A stretch of DNA of 47,364 bases. Source: Collinsella tanakaei YIT 12063 (GTDB lineage Bacteria > Actinomycetota > Coriobacteriia > Coriobacteriales > Coriobacteriaceae). Shown in pieces: positions 14,954 through 20,237 of the stretch. Numbering within the stretch: position 1 is the first letter of the stretch; each line of letters opens with the position of its first letter. The stretch is taken from NCBI RefSeq assembly GCF_000225705.1, contig NZ_JH126467.1, positions 637,202 to 684,565 of the forward strand. The letters are read 5' to 3'. A model generated the notes under the pieces. That model did not search any database. It was not told where the DNA came from and saw nothing but the letters and a program-made list of their open reading frames with translations. The position numbers were made by a program, and so were the translations under genes.

Positions 14954-15871
14954 ATGCGCTGTCTTATCATTCACAACCTCGCCTCAGGACCCAAGTCCGA
15001 CGAGATCTTCACCTTTGCCCAATTCCTCTCCCAGACAGGGGACGAGGTGGTCATGCGCTTTCTGGGCGATGGCATGGAGCCGGAAGACGCGACCGCGGAC
15101 GTAGGCCAATTCGACCGCGTGGTGGTATCCGGCGGCGACGGCAGCGTCTCCAACGTGCTCAACCACATGCGCAACACCGGCGTGCCCATCTTGGTGTTCC
15201 CCTCCGGCACCGCAAACCTGTTCTTCAACAACATCGGCAACGCGCCGGAAGCCGCGGCCCTTGCCGCCGCCTGCCATGCCGGCAAGACCGCCAAGGTGGA
15301 CATGGGCGAGATCTCTTGGACGGACGAGGAGGGCACGGAGCGCAGCCACGCGTTCATCATCATCGCCGGCACGGGCTTCGACGCCGCAATCATGGAGAAG
15401 GCGGAGTCCACCAAGGGCGACATGGGCGAGATCGCCTACATGCTCTCCGCGCTGGCGACGCCCTCCCCGCAGGTGGCGCACTTCACCATCGAGTGCGACG
15501 GCGAGGTCCATGAGCTGGACGGCATAGGCTGCATGGTGGGCAACACCGCCGTCATCCAAAATGAGATCAACCTGTTCCCGGACTGCCGCATGAACGACGG
15601 CATGATCGACATCGTGGTCATAGAGCCCGCCAAGACTGTGGAGCTTCTGCCCACGCTGATCGCCGGCGTGCTGGACAAGACCGGAAAGGCCATAGGGCGC
15701 CCGCAGTTCACCATGTTCCAGGCCCGCGAGGCCCACGTCGCCTGTAGCCCCTCCATGGGCATGCAGTTTGACGGCGAGCTCATCCACAGCAACGCCGGCA
15801 GCTTCAGCGCCCGCGTGATCCCGCAGTGCCTGGACCTCATCATCGACGGCTTCTCGAACCTCACCGAGTAG
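14954..15871 (+). CDS. Diacylglycerol kinase-family lipid kinase
   Basis: A 305-residue protein of the DAGK catalytic-domain family (YegS/DgkB/BmrU-like). Residues 54-63 VVVSGGDGSV carry the GGDG nucleotide-binding motif and VFPSGTANLF near residue 80 is the conserved second motif. A C-terminal beta domain follows (MQFDGELI near residue 275). Such enzymes phosphorylate diacylglycerol or related lipids at the membrane surface. The lipid substrate here is unknown. AGGAA precedes the ATG. It is followed by the tryptophan-transport operon, which has its own promoter. Confidence 0.88.
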   Translation: MRCLIIHNLASGPKSDEIFTFAQFLSQTGDEVVMRFLGDGMEPEDATADVGQFDRVVVSGGDGSVSNVLNHMRNTGVPILVFPSGTANLFFNNIGNAPEAAALAAACHAGKTAKVDMGEISWTDEEGTERSHAFIIIAGTGFDAAIMEKAESTKGDMGEIAYMLSALATPSPQVAHFTIECDGEVHELDGIGCMVGNTAVIQNEINLFPDCRMNDGMIDIVVIEPAKTVELLPTLIAGVLDKTGKAIGRPQFTMFQAREAHVACSPSMGMQFDGELIHSNAGSFSARVIPQCLDLIIDGFSNLTE

Positions 15872-15957
15872 CCGCGTCCGCCCGCCCGCCGCATGGCAGC
15901 CCGACCGCCGCATGGCCGCCCGACCGCGCCGTAACAAACTCGCAACGAGAAAACGAA

Positions 15958-15990
15958 TTGCGTTGCGCCCGCCCGCCGCTATGCTATAGT
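15958..15990 (+). promoter_or_regulatory. Probable promoter of the ECF tryptophan transporter operon
   Basis: TTGCGT (15958-15963) and TATGCT (15980-15985) are spaced by 16 bases. TTGCGC (15963-15968) with TATAGT (15985-15990) is an overlapping alternative. Either puts the transcript start about 50 bases before the leader peptide. Two near-identical 19-bp direct repeats (about 15887-15925) lie just upstream. Confidence 0.5.
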
Positions 15991-16047
15991 TCCTTCCAAC
16001 AAATGGGGACAGCCCCAAACCTCGATTCCGCGAAAGGAGATGCCGAC

Positions 16048-16119
16048 ATGATCAACGCAGCCAACAACTCCGTGATGAACTGGTGGTGGCGCGATGCGAT
16101 CTTTGTCGGTCGACGGTGA
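16048..16119 (+). CDS. Trp-rich leader peptide of the ECF transporter operon
   Basis: A 23-residue open frame with GAAAGGAG eight bases upstream of its ATG. It encodes three consecutive tryptophans (residues 12-14, in the context MNWWWRD) and ends in Arg-Arg-stop. The layout matches actinobacterial trp leader peptides, in which ribosome stalling at Trp codons senses charged tRNA-Trp. Stable hairpins and an intrinsic terminator follow directly, so this is a regulatory peptide and not an enzyme fragment. The unusual point is that the regulated genes are a transporter and not tryptophan biosynthesis. Confidence 0.88.
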   Translation: MINAANNSVMNWWWRDAIFVGRR

Positions 16120-16187
16120 GTCCTATCGCGCCAGAATCTTCTAGCAGCGAACTTTTTAGGCCTCCGGTTTGACCGGGGGCCTTTTTT
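16087..16187 (+). promoter_or_regulatory. Ribosome-mediated tryptophan attenuator
   Basis: TGGCGCGAT, which starts at the third Trp codon (16087-16095), is perfectly complementary to ATCGCGCCA (16125-16133), giving a 9-bp pause (1:2) hairpin that a ribosome stalled on the Trp codons would block. The terminator follows at 16159-16187. A candidate alternative pairing is CGGTC (16107-16111) with GACCG (16171-16175) in the terminator's 3' arm. I cannot define the antiterminator more firmly by eye. The predicted logic is that low charged tRNA-Trp stalls the ribosome, the terminator is not formed and the transporter is made. Confidence 0.8.
16159..16187 (+). terminator. Attenuator terminator
   Basis: The stem GGCCtCCGG / CCGGgGGCC with loop TTTGA is followed by T6. 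It lies between the leader peptide and the first S-component gene, so it is conditional and not an operon end. Confidence 0.85.
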
Positions 16188-16335
16188 CTTACCCCGGCAA
16201 CCACATCGACCGGCACCGCGCATCGCGCGCCTCCACCCCCACCAGCCCACCGGCACCGCGGCCCCGCGCAAGCGGCGCACCCGCAACCACCTTGCACCAC
16301 CGGCGCAAACGCGCACGCACCAAAAGGAGCACACC

Positions 16336-16899
16336 ATGTCCCAGAACACCGCCGCCCGCACCGTCACCGCCAACGACCACGGCAAGCTCGATATCCGCGC
16401 CCTGGTCCTGCTCGCCATCCTGCTGGCAGCCGGCCTCATCCTCAACTTCACCGTGGGCAAGGCCATCTCGTCCATGTCCGCCGGCATGATCAGCCCCGAG
16501 TTCATCATCTCCGCGTTCTGCCTCACCATCCTCATCATCCGTCCCAACATCGGCCAGGCGCTGGTGATAGGCCTCATCTCCGCGGCCGTCATCCAGATCA
16601 CCACCACCTCGCCCTTCATCGACTTCGCTGCCGAGGGCATCTCCGCCATGGTCATGGCCGTCATCGTCCGCGCCGGCATGCGCGGCGGCGCCGCCAAGGT
16701 CACCCCGCTGGTCGGCACCTTTGTCACCACCCTGCTCTCCGGCGTGATCTTCATGCTCATCAAGATGGCCATGGTGGGCGCCGCTGGAGAGCTCGCCGCC
16801 GCCATGCTGCCCGTGGTCGCCGCCACCGCCGTCTTCAACGCCATCCTGGTTCAGGCCCTCTACATCCCCATCAAGAAGGCTCTTAAGCTGGACGATTAG
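16336..16899 (+). CDS. TrpP-like ECF transporter S component 1 (predicted tryptophan)
   Basis: A 187-residue integral membrane protein with about five or six hydrophobic segments and a short polar N-terminus. The pattern (LLAAGLILNFTVG, LISAAVIQITTT, VGTFVTTLLSGVIFML, VFNAILVQALYIPIKKAL) matches the TrpP family of tryptophan substrate-binding S components. AAGGAG precedes the ATG. Substrate assignment rests on two independent points: resemblance to TrpP and the Trp leader attenuator just upstream. It works with the ATPase and EcfT encoded downstream. A tandem paralogue follows. Confidence 0.82.
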   Translation: MSQNTAARTVTANDHGKLDIRALVLLAILLAAGLILNFTVGKAISSMSAGMISPEFIISAFCLTILIIRPNIGQALVIGLISAAVIQITTTSPFIDFAAEGISAMVMAVIVRAGMRGGAAKVTPLVGTFVTTLLSGVIFMLIKMAMVGAAGELAAAMLPVVAATAVFNAILVQALYIPIKKALKLDD

Positions 16900-17157
16900 C
16901 CCTCAAAGGCCCTTCGCCCTCCCCTCGATTCATCCCACCCAACCGCCCTTCCATCCTCGCGGTCGGCGAGGCACCGCAGCATCGTCGCCCGCACTTTCTC
17001 CAAGCGCTGCCGCGCCAAAAACCACCCGCAAATCAAATACGCACCAAAAGCATCCGCCCGCAAGCGGTATAGGCCCCGCCGTGCCAAGACGCCATGCCGC
17101 CTCCCCACCCAAGGACCCCGGGCGAATGCGGACGAAAAACCCAAGAGAGGAAACACC

Positions 17158-17709
17158 ATGGACCAGAAACCCCGCACCCGCACCGTCGCCGCCTCCAGCC
17201 GCGGCGCGCTGGACATCTCCGCCATCGTCCTGCTATCCGTCCTGCTGGCAGCCGGCTTCATCCTCAACTTCACCCTGGGCAACGCGCTTGCCATAACCGG
17301 CATCAAGCCGCAGTTCATCATCGCCGCCTACTCGCTCGCCATCCTGCTCACCCGCGCCAACCTCACCCAGTCGGTGCTCTACGGCCTCATCTCCGCCGCG
17401 GTGATCCAGCTCAGCACGTCGGTCCCCGGCCTCAACTTTGTAACCGAGGTCGCGGGCGCCCTGGTCATGGCGCTGCTTTGCCGCCTTGAGGTCGCGCCCG
17501 CCGGCAGAAGCATCACCCCGCTCATCGCCGGCTTTGTGACTACGCTGGTTTCCGGCGCGCTCTTCGCGGGGCTGGGCACCGTCCTTATGGGGGCCGCCCT
17601 TGTTACCGTCACCGCAAAAATCCCCGTTGTGCTGGGCACGGCCGTATTCAATGCTATCGTGGTACAAGCGCTGTACACCCCGTTGAAGGCCGTCCTCAAG
17701 CGCGGTTAA
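17158..17709 (+). CDS. TrpP-like ECF transporter S component 2 (tandem paralogue)
   Basis: A 183-residue membrane protein clearly paralogous to its neighbour. Shared blocks include RTV at the N-terminus, LLAAGFILNFTLG, LISAAVIQLSTS, GFVTTLVSGALF and VFNAIVVQALYTPLKAVL. AGAGGAAA precedes the ATG. The 258-base gap between the two S genes holds no second leader peptide or obvious terminator, so both appear to be under the single upstream attenuator. It may bind tryptophan or a related aromatic compound. The divergent first half suggests it could differ in specificity. Confidence 0.8.
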   Translation: MDQKPRTRTVAASSRGALDISAIVLLSVLLAAGFILNFTLGNALAITGIKPQFIIAAYSLAILLTRANLTQSVLYGLISAAVIQLSTSVPGLNFVTEVAGALVMALLCRLEVAPAGRSITPLIAGFVTTLVSGALFAGLGTVLMGAALVTVTAKIPVVLGTAVFNAIVVQALYTPLKAVLKRG

Positions 17710-17737
17710 GCTCGTTCGTCATCACCAGGAAGACCTC

Positions 17738-19498
17738 ATGCAACCAATCATCCAATTAGAAAACGTCAGCTTCTCCTACAGCCAGGAGGCCTCCCGGGCG
17801 CTTACCGACGTCTCGCTTTGCATCGAGCAGGGCGAGTTCGTCGGCGTCATAGGCCCCTCGGGCGCCGGCAAGTCCACGCTGGCCGCCGTGCTCTCCGGCG
17901 CCATCCCCCACCATTACAGGGGCGCGTTCTACGGCGCCGCCCGCGTGGAGGGACGCGACACCTGCGAGATCAGCCTCACGGACATCGCCCGCGTGGTGGG
18001 CGCCGTGGCGCAGGACATCGACGCGCAGATGGTCGCCTCCGTGGTTGAGGACGAGATGCTCTTTGGCCTGGAGAACTTCGGCGTGCCCCATGACCAGATA
18101 GAGGGCCGCATCCAGCGCGCGCTCGCCACCGTAGGAATAGAGCAGCTGCGCGACCGCGAGATCGCCACGCTCTCCGGCGGGCAGAAGCAAAAGGTCGCCA
18201 TCGCGGCGATCTTGGCCCTGGAGCCCCGCGTGCTTGTTTTGGACGAGCCCACCGCGGCGCTGGACCCGGTGAGCTCGCGCATGGTGTTCGAGACGCTGCG
18301 CGAGGTCAACCGCGTGGCGGGCGTCACCGTGGTGGTCATCGAGCAGATGGTCGCCCTGCTCTCCGAGTTCTGCGAGCGCGTCATCGTGATGAACAAGGGC
18401 TCCGTGGCCCTGGACGGCACCCCGCGCGAGGTGTTCGCCCACGCGGAGGACCTGCGCGCCATAGGCGTCGACAGCCCGCGCGTCACCCGCGTCTACAACA
18501 GCATGCGCGCCCAAAACCTGCTCGCCGTAGACCAGGCCCCCTGCCTCAACGTTCCGGAAGCGGCCGATATGATCGCCCGCGCGCTGGACGGCCACGCCGC
18601 CCCCAACCAAAGCCGTGCCGGCGAGCTGCAGCCCTCTCCCCATGCGCCGGCACGCCCGCACGCCCGGGGCGCCCAGCCGGTGCTTCGCATCGAGAACGCG
18701 AGCTTCTCCTACCCCGCCGGCGGCGCCGCCGTGCGCGACCTCGCCATGGAGGTCTACCCCGGCGAGCTGGTGGGCGTGGTGGGCCAAAACGGCGCCGGTA
18801 AAACCACCCTTACCAAGCTCATCAACGGCCTGCTCACCCCGTCATCTGGCTCAGTCACGGTCGCGGAGATGGACACGCGCGAGACCCCCGTCTCCGCACT
18901 CGCGGCCAACGTGGCCACGATGTTCCAAAACCCGGACCGCCAGATCTGCAAGCAGACGGTTTTGGACGAGGTCGCCTTTGGCCTCGAGCTCCACGGCGTC
19001 GAGCGCGAAGACGCCCTCGAGCGCGCGCAGGCGGTCATCGACCGCTTTGGCCTGCCCGCGGACCAGGCCCCCTTCTCGCTCTCGCGCGGCCAGCGGCAGA
19101 TGGTGGCCCTGGCGTCCGTCGTGGTCATCGAGCCCAAGCTGGTGCTTTTGGACGAGCCCACCAGCGGCCTCGATTACCGCGAGTGCATGACGGTCATGCA
19201 GACGGTGCGCGACATGGCCGAGCGCGGCTGCGCCGTGGTGATGGTATGCCATGACATGGAGGTTGTCTCGGACTTCGCCGATCGCCTGGCGGTCATGGCG
19301 AACGGCCGCATCCTGGAGCGCGGGCGCACGGCGGAGGTCTTCGCCAACACCGGCCTTATGCGCGAGGCGAGCATCACCCCGCCTCAGGTGGTCGCCCTCT
19401 CCCAGGCGCTCGCGCACACCGTGTCGCCCGCCTTCGCCTCCATCACCGAGGTCTCCCAGATAGTCGACACCGCAAAGGAGCTGATCGAGCGTGGTTAA
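17738..19498 (+). CDS. ECF transporter energising ATPase, two fused ABC domains
   Basis: A 586-residue protein with two complete ABC ATPase domains, equivalent to fused EcfA1 and EcfA2. Domain 1 has Walker A GPSGAGKS (39-46), signature LSGGQKQKVA and Walker B VLVLDEPTAALDP. Domain 2 has Walker A GQNGAGKT (349-356), signature LSRGQRQMVA and Walker B LVLLDEPTSGLDY. A Pro/Ala/Arg-rich linker near residues 285-310 joins them. It is cytosolic, bound to EcfT, and powers substrate release from the S components. Its stop overlaps the EcfT start, which shows translational coupling. Confidence 0.92.
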   Translation: MQPIIQLENVSFSYSQEASRALTDVSLCIEQGEFVGVIGPSGAGKSTLAAVLSGAIPHHYRGAFYGAARVEGRDTCEISLTDIARVVGAVAQDIDAQMVASVVEDEMLFGLENFGVPHDQIEGRIQRALATVGIEQLRDREIATLSGGQKQKVAIAAILALEPRVLVLDEPTAALDPVSSRMVFETLREVNRVAGVTVVVIEQMVALLSEFCERVIVMNKGSVALDGTPREVFAHAEDLRAIGVDSPRVTRVYNSMRAQNLLAVDQAPCLNVPEAADMIARALDGHAAPNQSRAGELQPSPHAPARPHARGAQPVLRIENASFSYPAGGAAVRDLAMEVYPGELVGVVGQNGAGKTTLTKLINGLLTPSSGSVTVAEMDTRETPVSALAANVATMFQNPDRQICKQTVLDEVAFGLELHGVEREDALERAQAVIDRFGLPADQAPFSLSRGQRQMVALASVVVIEPKLVLLDEPTSGLDYRECMTVMQTVRDMAERGCAVVMVCHDMEVVSDFADRLAVMANGRILERGRTAEVFANTGLMREASITPPQVVALSQALAHTVSPAFASITEVSQIVDTAKELIERG

Positions 19499-20237
19499 CG
19501 TCATCGACTACGTACCGGGCGCCACCGTGCTGCACCGCCTCAACCCCGTCGCCAAGCTGGCGCTCGCATCGGGCATCATCATCGCCACGTTTCTAGCCGC
19601 CTCCTACCCCGCGCTGGTGGGGCTGCTTGTCATCACTCTGGCGCTGGGCGCCTATGCGGGCGTCTTCAGCCGCCTGGCGTCGCTTCTCAAGGTGCTTCTG
19701 CCGCTCGCCGCCATCATGCTGGTGCTGCAGATGATCTTTGTGCAGGGAGGCGAGCGCCTGGTGGGCTTTGTCACCAGCGAGGGACTCGTCACCGGCTCAA
19801 AGGCCTGCCTGCGCCTGCTGGGCGTGGCGCTGCCCTTAGTGCTGGTGCTCACCGTCACCAAGCTCACGGACCTGGCGAACGCCTGCGTGGAGATCTTGCA
19901 CGTGCCGTACCGCTACGCCTTCGCGTTCACCACGGCGCTTCGCTTTGTCCCGCTCTTTGGCCAGGAGATGAACGCCATCATGGAGGCGCAGACCGCCCGC
20001 GGCGTGGAGTACGACACCAAGAACCCCATCAAGAAGCTCCAGCTCATGCTGCCTTTGTGCATTCCGCTGCTTATCTCGTCCGTAGGCAAGACCGACGCCA
20101 CGGCCCTTGCGGCAGAGCAGCGCGGCTTCTACCTGCGCACGCGTGAGAGCTCCTATAAGCGCTACCCCCTGCAGGCGCTCGATTTCGCAGCCATCGCCGT
20201 CGCGGTCGCCCTCATAGTCGCCGGCGCGCTCATGTAG
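19491..20237 (+). CDS. ECF transporter transmembrane scaffold (EcfT)
   Basis: A 248-residue membrane protein with hydrophobic segments in the N-terminal two-thirds and the two short Arg-containing coupling motifs of the family, ARGVEYDTKNP and QRGFYLRTRE, which insert into the ATPase grooves. It starts with GTG at 19491, eight bases inside the ATPase gene, and AAAGGAG lies at a suitable distance. It completes the transporter: two S components, double ATPase and T. Because the module is encoded with its own S components, it is arranged as a dedicated (group I) ECF system. Confidence 0.9.
   Translation: MVNVIDYVPGATVLHRLNPVAKLALASGIIIATFLAASYPALVGLLVITLALGAYAGVFSRLASLLKVLLPLAAIMLVLQMIFVQGGERLVGFVTSEGLVTGSKACLRLLGVALPLVLVLTVTKLTDLANACVEILHVPYRYAFAFTTALRFVPLFGQEMNAIMEAQTARGVEYDTKNPIKKLQLMLPLCIPLLISSVGKTDATALAAEQRGFYLRTRESSYKRYPLQALDFAAIAVAVALIVAGALM

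Follow-up and report, generated by a model that had tools for sequence, protein, structure and literature searches.

T-boxes sense uncharged tRNA directly and involve no leader peptide, and the trpP gene of Bacillus is under TRAP control. The closest described systems to the locus analysed here are the predicted classical attenuators ahead of the trp operons and of trpS in Corynebacterium and Streptomyces (PMC1262725), which, as far as the main text of that paper goes, likewise combine a leader with double or triple UGG codons, a competing antiterminator and a GC-rich terminator followed by poly-U. The target differs, since those attenuators precede trp biosynthesis operons and trpS while the one described here precedes an ECF uptake operon, and the terms "transporter" and "Coriobacter" have no occurrence in that main text. 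Histidine operons in Firmicutes carry either a T-box or a leader-peptide attenuator as alternatives on the same pathway (PMC9413887), a case that concerns a different amino acid and a different phylum; the split found here, with a T-box on biosynthesis and an attenuator on uptake in one genome, is not seen in the accessible text of that paper. The C. glutamicum protein named "TrpP", which its authors excluded as a Trp transporter (PMC11995493), is a different protein alike in name only, and "ECF" and "S component" do not occur in the accessible text of that report. This system is likewise not described in the accessible text of PMC4833913, PMC3766115 and PMC6593275, and among the matches listed in the open-access literature none describes a Trp attenuator upstream of an ECF/TrpP operon in the order of the host.

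The locus lies in the window, by which we mean the whole 47,364-nt stretch of DNA that was analysed, and comparison of related sequences gives good support for regarding it as a real, lineage-wide tryptophan attenuator, i.e., a known mechanism with an unusual target, an ECF importer. The features are as follows.

15963..15990, plus strand: promoter-like pair, TTGCGC at 15963-15968 and TATAGT at 15985-15990 with 16 nt between them, found with loose criteria and without a chance control
16033..16039, plus strand: Shine-Dalgarno sequence AAAGGAG of the leader peptide, read from the sequence
16048..16119, plus strand: leader peptide ORF of 23 codons, MINAANNSVMNWWWRDAIFVGRR and stop, conserved in relatives
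16081..16089, plus strand: three consecutive Trp codons (regulatory codons), read from the sequence
16087..16095, plus strand: strand 1, TGGCGCGAT, of the 1:2 (pause or anti-antiterminator) hairpin, a 9-bp helix
16125..16133, plus strand: strand 2 arm of the 1:2 hairpin, ATCGCGCCA, pairing with 16087-16095 in the 9-bp helix
16108..16129, plus strand: proposed antiterminator strand, GGTCGACGGTGAGTCCTATCGC, overlapping the leader stop codon and conserved in the alignment of relatives
16147..16174, plus strand: proposed antiterminator partner (GCGA...TAGGCCTC...GACC), overlapping the terminator, with mixed results in pairing tests
16158..16187, plus strand: intrinsic terminator, a stem of 11 pairs at 16158-16182 and then a T tract, from a terminator scan and comparison
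16336..16899, plus strand: S1, TrpP-like ECF S component, 187 aa (PF17099, 1.2e-5, 25.6 bits)
17158..17709, plus strand: S2, second TrpP-like S component, 183 aa (PF17099, 3.8e-5, 24.0 bits)
17738..19498, plus strand: fused double ECF ATPase (EcfA-EcfA'), 586 aa (TIGR04520, 456 bits against a cut-off of 315, in two stretches)
19491..20237, plus strand: EcfT (CbiQ family) transmembrane coupling component, 248 aa (PF02361, 89.5 bits against a cut-off of 25)

The preliminary description had named a 23-codon leader with Trp-Trp-Trp, a 9-bp hairpin that opens with the third of these codons, and an intrinsic terminator followed by T residues; all three were confirmed at the positions listed. An alternative in-frame ATG at 16003 would give a leader ORF of 38 codons; the start at 16048 is favoured because of its Shine-Dalgarno sequence. 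No second WWW ORF of 8-45 aa occurs in the window on either strand. Rfam returned only weak matches at the locus, all below gathering scores, and the tryptophan T-box (RF00230), which in other relatives would answer to the same amino acid on the orthologous operon, gave no match here with E up to 1 in 15850-17800.

We read the locus as a ribosome-mediated attenuator through which read-through into a Trp-uptake operon would depend on charged tRNA-Trp, and we give this reading a probability of roughly 0.87. Such attenuation of uptake had been proposed at the outset, and it is well supported by the comparison of the leader, its codons and their spacing, the 1:2 helix and the terminator. Where tryptophan is plentiful, the leading ribosome would pass the three UGG codons, reach the stop codon and cover the strand GGUCGACGGUGAGUCC, whereupon the terminator hairpin would form and transcription would stop. 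Where charged tRNA-Trp is scarce, the ribosome would stall on UGG and cover strand 1, which spans the third Trp codon and the two codons after it, so that no 1:2 hairpin would form and strand 2 would be free to pair with the 5' arm of the terminator. With the antiterminator paired, the polymerase would read into S1-S2-EcfAA'-EcfT, which we infer to encode an ECF importer of tryptophan or something closely related.

The comparison drew on the DNA upstream of 123 TrpP-like loci from 122 genomes, with the window's own included and duplicate loci dropped; the TrpP family occurs in 115 of the 297 genomes sampled from the order, and relatives of S1 were found in 40 of 58 genomes searched. A WWW leader with a T run precedes 86 of the 123 loci (WW in L026), a T-box motif precedes 32, and five have neither, so that the arrangement, which had been thought uncommon, is in this order common. 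By family label, the leader is present at 46 of 47 loci in f1 and 36 of 39 in f5, while f2 has 30 T-boxes and three leaders among its 33 loci; f3 contributes one leader, f6 and f10 one T-box each, and f7 one locus with neither. As for the five with neither, L027 lies at a contig end and a covariance model of the leader finds one on another contig of the same genome, L084 had too little DNA in the classified piece and has a covariance-model leader just upstream, and in L037 the leader sits before the preceding TrpB2-like gene. The remaining two, L093 and L094 (genomes G143 and G157), have lost the leader peptide and kept the terminator with the conserved GGTTGACC.

Once near-identical leaders were dropped and L064, whose leader is built differently, was left out, 53 representative leaders remained. 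Three Trp codons are present in 52 of them, the first Trp codon stands exactly 12 codons 5' of the stop in 51, a GGAG-type site precedes the start codon in 52, and an intrinsic terminator follows in all 53 (-13.6 to -28.2 kcal/mol). A promoter-like pair, again by loose criteria and without a chance control, lies 5' of the leader in 40 of the 53, with TATAGT in 28; a stricter default sigma-70 scan of the locus found no promoter. The covariance model, built from the relatives' leaders and the window's leader, has a single match in the window's whole genome, at this operon, and matches 136 of the 297 genomes of the order; it also matches all 42 same-genus genomes listed. We gave up the idea of a phylum-wide leader, because in a draw from the phylum 14 of 346 genomes match, all from the same order, under stricter filters that lose weak matches.

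The relatives were also used to assess the RNA pairings. The permutation tests, run over the 53 representatives, take no account of relatedness, and their significance is therefore overstated. The WWW leader and the pairings are kept in relatives with compensatory changes, as the preliminary description had proposed to check; covariation is clear for the terminator, fairly good for the 1:2 hairpin and weak for the antiterminator. In the terminator, both sides have changed at 8 of 10 pairs, a number reached in 0 of 500 shuffles, and 96.8% of cells are paired. In the 1:2 helix, a leader's own partners score -11.6 against -10.3 for partners swapped between species, with 0 of 5000 permutations as good, and within single leaders the signal is small (59% of swaps weaker than the native pair). 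Cells changed on both sides number 24, compared with 10.2 in shuffles, none of which (0 of 500) comes as high; column pair 12-48 reads CG in 24, UA in 15 and UG in 10. Counted by pairs, 5 of 9 are double-changed, which 78 of 500 shuffles and also a slide of -3 reach; 74.6% of cells pair, and by eye the helix is weak in L034, L092 and L101.

The antiterminator helix, which we regard as likely rather than established, is the weakest part of the model. Its strand GGUCGACGGUGAGUCC, which overlaps the leader stop codon, is strongly conserved and can pair with the 5' arm of the terminator as GAG/CUC and CC/GG and, further out, as GGUC/GACC; in the window the pairing extends as CCUA/UAGG and UCGC/GCGA. 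The native 2:3 pairing averages -24.5 kcal/mol against -23.4 when swapped, with 4 of 5000 permutations as good and 62% of swaps weaker within single leaders. The upstream half scores -12.07 against -9.96 for shuffled spacers, with 13 of 53 native spacers in the best 5%, and against -11.48 for swapped spacers, a difference that is not significant (sd 0.32, z about -1.8).

Downstream of the terminator, the two TrpP-like S components, the double ATPase and EcfT that the preliminary description had named are all present on the same strand at 16336-20237. The complete transporter operon placed at 15958-17709 is there, with an end at 17709 that is too short, the operon running to 20237. A search with the TrpP profile, which had been suggested as a check, gave near end-to-end matches of PF17099 to both S1 and S2 that fall 1.6 and 3.2 bits below the cut-off of 27.2, and PF17099 matches above the cut-off occur in 55 of the 297 genomes of the order, at up to 52 bits. 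As such, S1 and S2 are TrpP-like and homologous, not strict members of PF17099, and differ from TrpP as otherwise known in being two paralogues with their own fused ATPase and EcfT. NCBIfam held no useful model for S1 or S2, and a sequence-profile search of the PDB found no solved structure for either. The AlphaFold model generated for S1 alone (pLDDT 90.5) predicts the six-helix fold of an ECF S component, and the best seven Foldseek matches to it, ThiT and RibU among them, all belong to ECF S components, at TM to query of 0.50-0.57 and E of 0.012-0.24, none under 0.001.

With S components, two ATPase domains and EcfT in one operon, the locus has the composition of a dedicated module (group I type); two further CbiQ genes lie elsewhere in the window's genome, so that modules may be shared. 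The gap between S1 and S2 (16900-17157) is 258 bases long, against about 100 bases between the matched parts in L070, and it contains no plus-strand terminator-like site and no second WWW ORF.

The relatives with a T-box provide a second line of evidence on what the operon answers to. The 30 T-box loci scanned, with L053 and L059 left out, all match RF00230 upstream of TrpP with E of at most 1.6e-9, all of them under the gathering score of 93 bits. A pattern search placed UGG in the specifier region of 28 of the 32 T-box loci, and UGG is also visible in the T-box alignments of L055 and of L056, which is the same place as L036. A T-box with UGG on orthologous loci would thus be an independent sensor pointing to the same amino acid, tryptophan. 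Beside the TrpP T-box of L036 there is a divergent strong T-box (L036:5334-5581, 109 bits) with a different apparent specifier.

The tree of S proteins divides into a group of 32 rows, 28 of them with a T-box, and a group of 92 rows with no T-box. L073 (f2) and L039 (f3), both preceded by a WWW leader, are placed among T-box rows, the former with support of 97/53 inside a 99/96 group and the latter with 100/92 inside a 98/97 group; L064 and L037 in the T-box-rich group also have no T-box, and L064 has a WWW leader. As WWW leaders are nested among T-box rows, we read the tree as pointing to at least two sensor swaps on the same orthologous uptake operon, either direction being possible. The placement of L130 (f2) in the group without T-boxes suggests transfer. 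The newer point of this work would be this sensor swap, with orthologous uptake operons carrying either the attenuator or the T-box.

For biosynthesis, we examined 18 trpA regions, all taken from genomes that have either a TrpP operon or the leader. A T-box stands directly before trpE in 10 of the 18, where the best family of the trpE calls is anthranilate synthase component I at 473-500 bits, just under the cut-off of 517.7; in L201 a T-box precedes a lone trpA. These 11 T-box loci of biosynthesis (L196-L202, L208, L209, L211 and L212) match with E of at most 7.3e-9, all under the gathering score, and all 11, L196 and L197 included, have UGG in the specifier region. We dropped the idea that the same leader also serves trp biosynthesis, because the trpE operons carry a T-box (10 of 10 examined). 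Left out of the trp-operon count were L203-L207 and L210, whose surroundings are not a trp operon, and L213, a contig of 3006 bases; the six scanned with Rfam, L203-L207 and L210, gave no T-box match. In L203-L207 a trpA-like gene belongs to another conserved cluster, which shows neither a trp operon nor a T-box match.

Nine of the 11 genomes with a biosynthesis T-box keep an intact attenuator leader on the uptake operon, so that, going by these matches, biosynthesis and uptake of tryptophan within one genome appear to be under different tRNA-reading devices. The other two are G143 and G157. Since both have a trpE operon with a T-box, the attenuator may decay where tryptophan biosynthesis exists, although the nine other genomes keep both.

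Two S components are present in 28 of the 123 loci (11 of 47 in f1, 17 of 39 in f5 and 0 of 37 elsewhere). In the S-protein tree, 23 of 26 S2 rows and one single copy form one clade (100/98), with the S2 rows L080, L082 and L092 placed outside it, and this clade suggests that the duplication predates the split between f1 and f5 and was followed by losses. A comparison by position, with 11 of the 59 alignment rows left out, found fixed differences between 23 of 23 S1 and 10 of 10 S2 rows at E55/Q, F61/Y, D96/N, A99/T and M157/K; the 15 T-box rows have N55, Y61, N96, S99 and Y157, S2 being closer to them at 61 and 96. These five positions are close to three loops on the same face of the predicted six-helix fold, and in known S components such loops form the substrate site. 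Fixed differences near the predicted pocket suggest that the substrates or affinities of S1 and S2 may differ.

It is on these differences that the strongest alternative draws, in which at least one S component would import something other than tryptophan (a precursor, a breakdown product or an analogue) while the leader still senses charged tRNA-Trp; the profile scores of S1 and S2 under the TrpP cut-off also speak for it. We consider this alternative unlikely, if worth keeping in mind, because the polar residues Q87, E100, T132 and S135 do not vary among the S1, S2 and T-box rows compared and N168 differs in just one S2 row, and because 118 of the 123 loci stand behind a WWW leader or a T-box. 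The window's genome, moreover, has no match to trpA (PF00290), and as it has none to TrpB2 either, it probably needs outside tryptophan. Matches to trpA occur in 3 of the 42 same-genus genomes listed and in 76 of the 297 genomes of the order.

Returning to the reading of the operon as an attenuated tryptophan importer, we tentatively propose a wider one, in which two unrelated sensors of tRNA-Trp would divide labour and trade places: a T-box on biosynthesis and an attenuator on uptake would act in the same cell at different thresholds, lineages would swap sensors on orthologous uptake operons, and an old S1/S2 duplication would have given two S components of different substrate or affinity that share one Trp-gated motor. 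The leader provides strong context for what a widespread ECF importer carries; in this order, 221 of the 297 genomes sampled lack a trpA match and may therefore depend on outside tryptophan. The relatives further provide natural pairs of orthologous operons differing in sensor and single genomes with both sensors for one amino acid, which makes testable what one tRNA-sensing mechanism offers over the other.

The same type of leader is found before other genes. Its targets there include TrpB2 in L174, L176, L177 and L179 and a sodium-dependent transporter in L165-L168, both of which fit a tryptophan regulon; the sodium symporter of L165-L168 possibly carries tryptophan. In L165, L166 and L168 the leader stops three residues past WWW and the downstream RNA motif GGTCGATCG.GAGC is kept, so that the RNA, not the peptide tail, seems to be selected. 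This bears on a TnaC-like mechanism, in which free tryptophan would arrest the ribosome through the nascent peptide and turn the operon on in excess tryptophan. A Trp-containing leader peptide 5' of a transporter is what such a mechanism would have, and the end of the peptide (often GR and one residue) is conserved. The residues ahead of WWW vary, however, and consecutive Trp codons combined with an intrinsic terminator and a competing 1:2 hairpin match the starvation type; together with the short leaders, these points make a TnaC-like mechanism very improbable. That the WWW ORF is a coincidence in front of an ordinary intergenic terminator is scarcely credible, for although GC-rich DNA often contains short ORFs and the gene upstream has its end at 15871, none of 20,000 randomised copies of the upstream DNA (first-order Markov) produced a WWW short ORF, and the leader's presence in 86 of 123 loci, its 12-codon spacing in 51 of 53 and the one genome-wide covariance-model match all argue against chance.

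Two minor observations concern the operon proteins. Those encoded at 16336-20237 have no Trp in 1204 residues, and among relatives the Trp-free proteins number 110 of 111 for S proteins behind a WWW leader, 58 of 67 for the ATPase and only 20 of 84 for EcfT. This avoidance of Trp, gauged against a background set that includes doubtful ORFs, is suggestive only, because another ECF locus in the window's genome (L185) has two Trp-free ORFs. Finally, at L177:1815-3329 and L178:141-1682 a single ORF of about 505-514 codons joins a TrpP-like S component to an ECF ATPase, and that of L177 stands behind a WWW leader and TrpB2.
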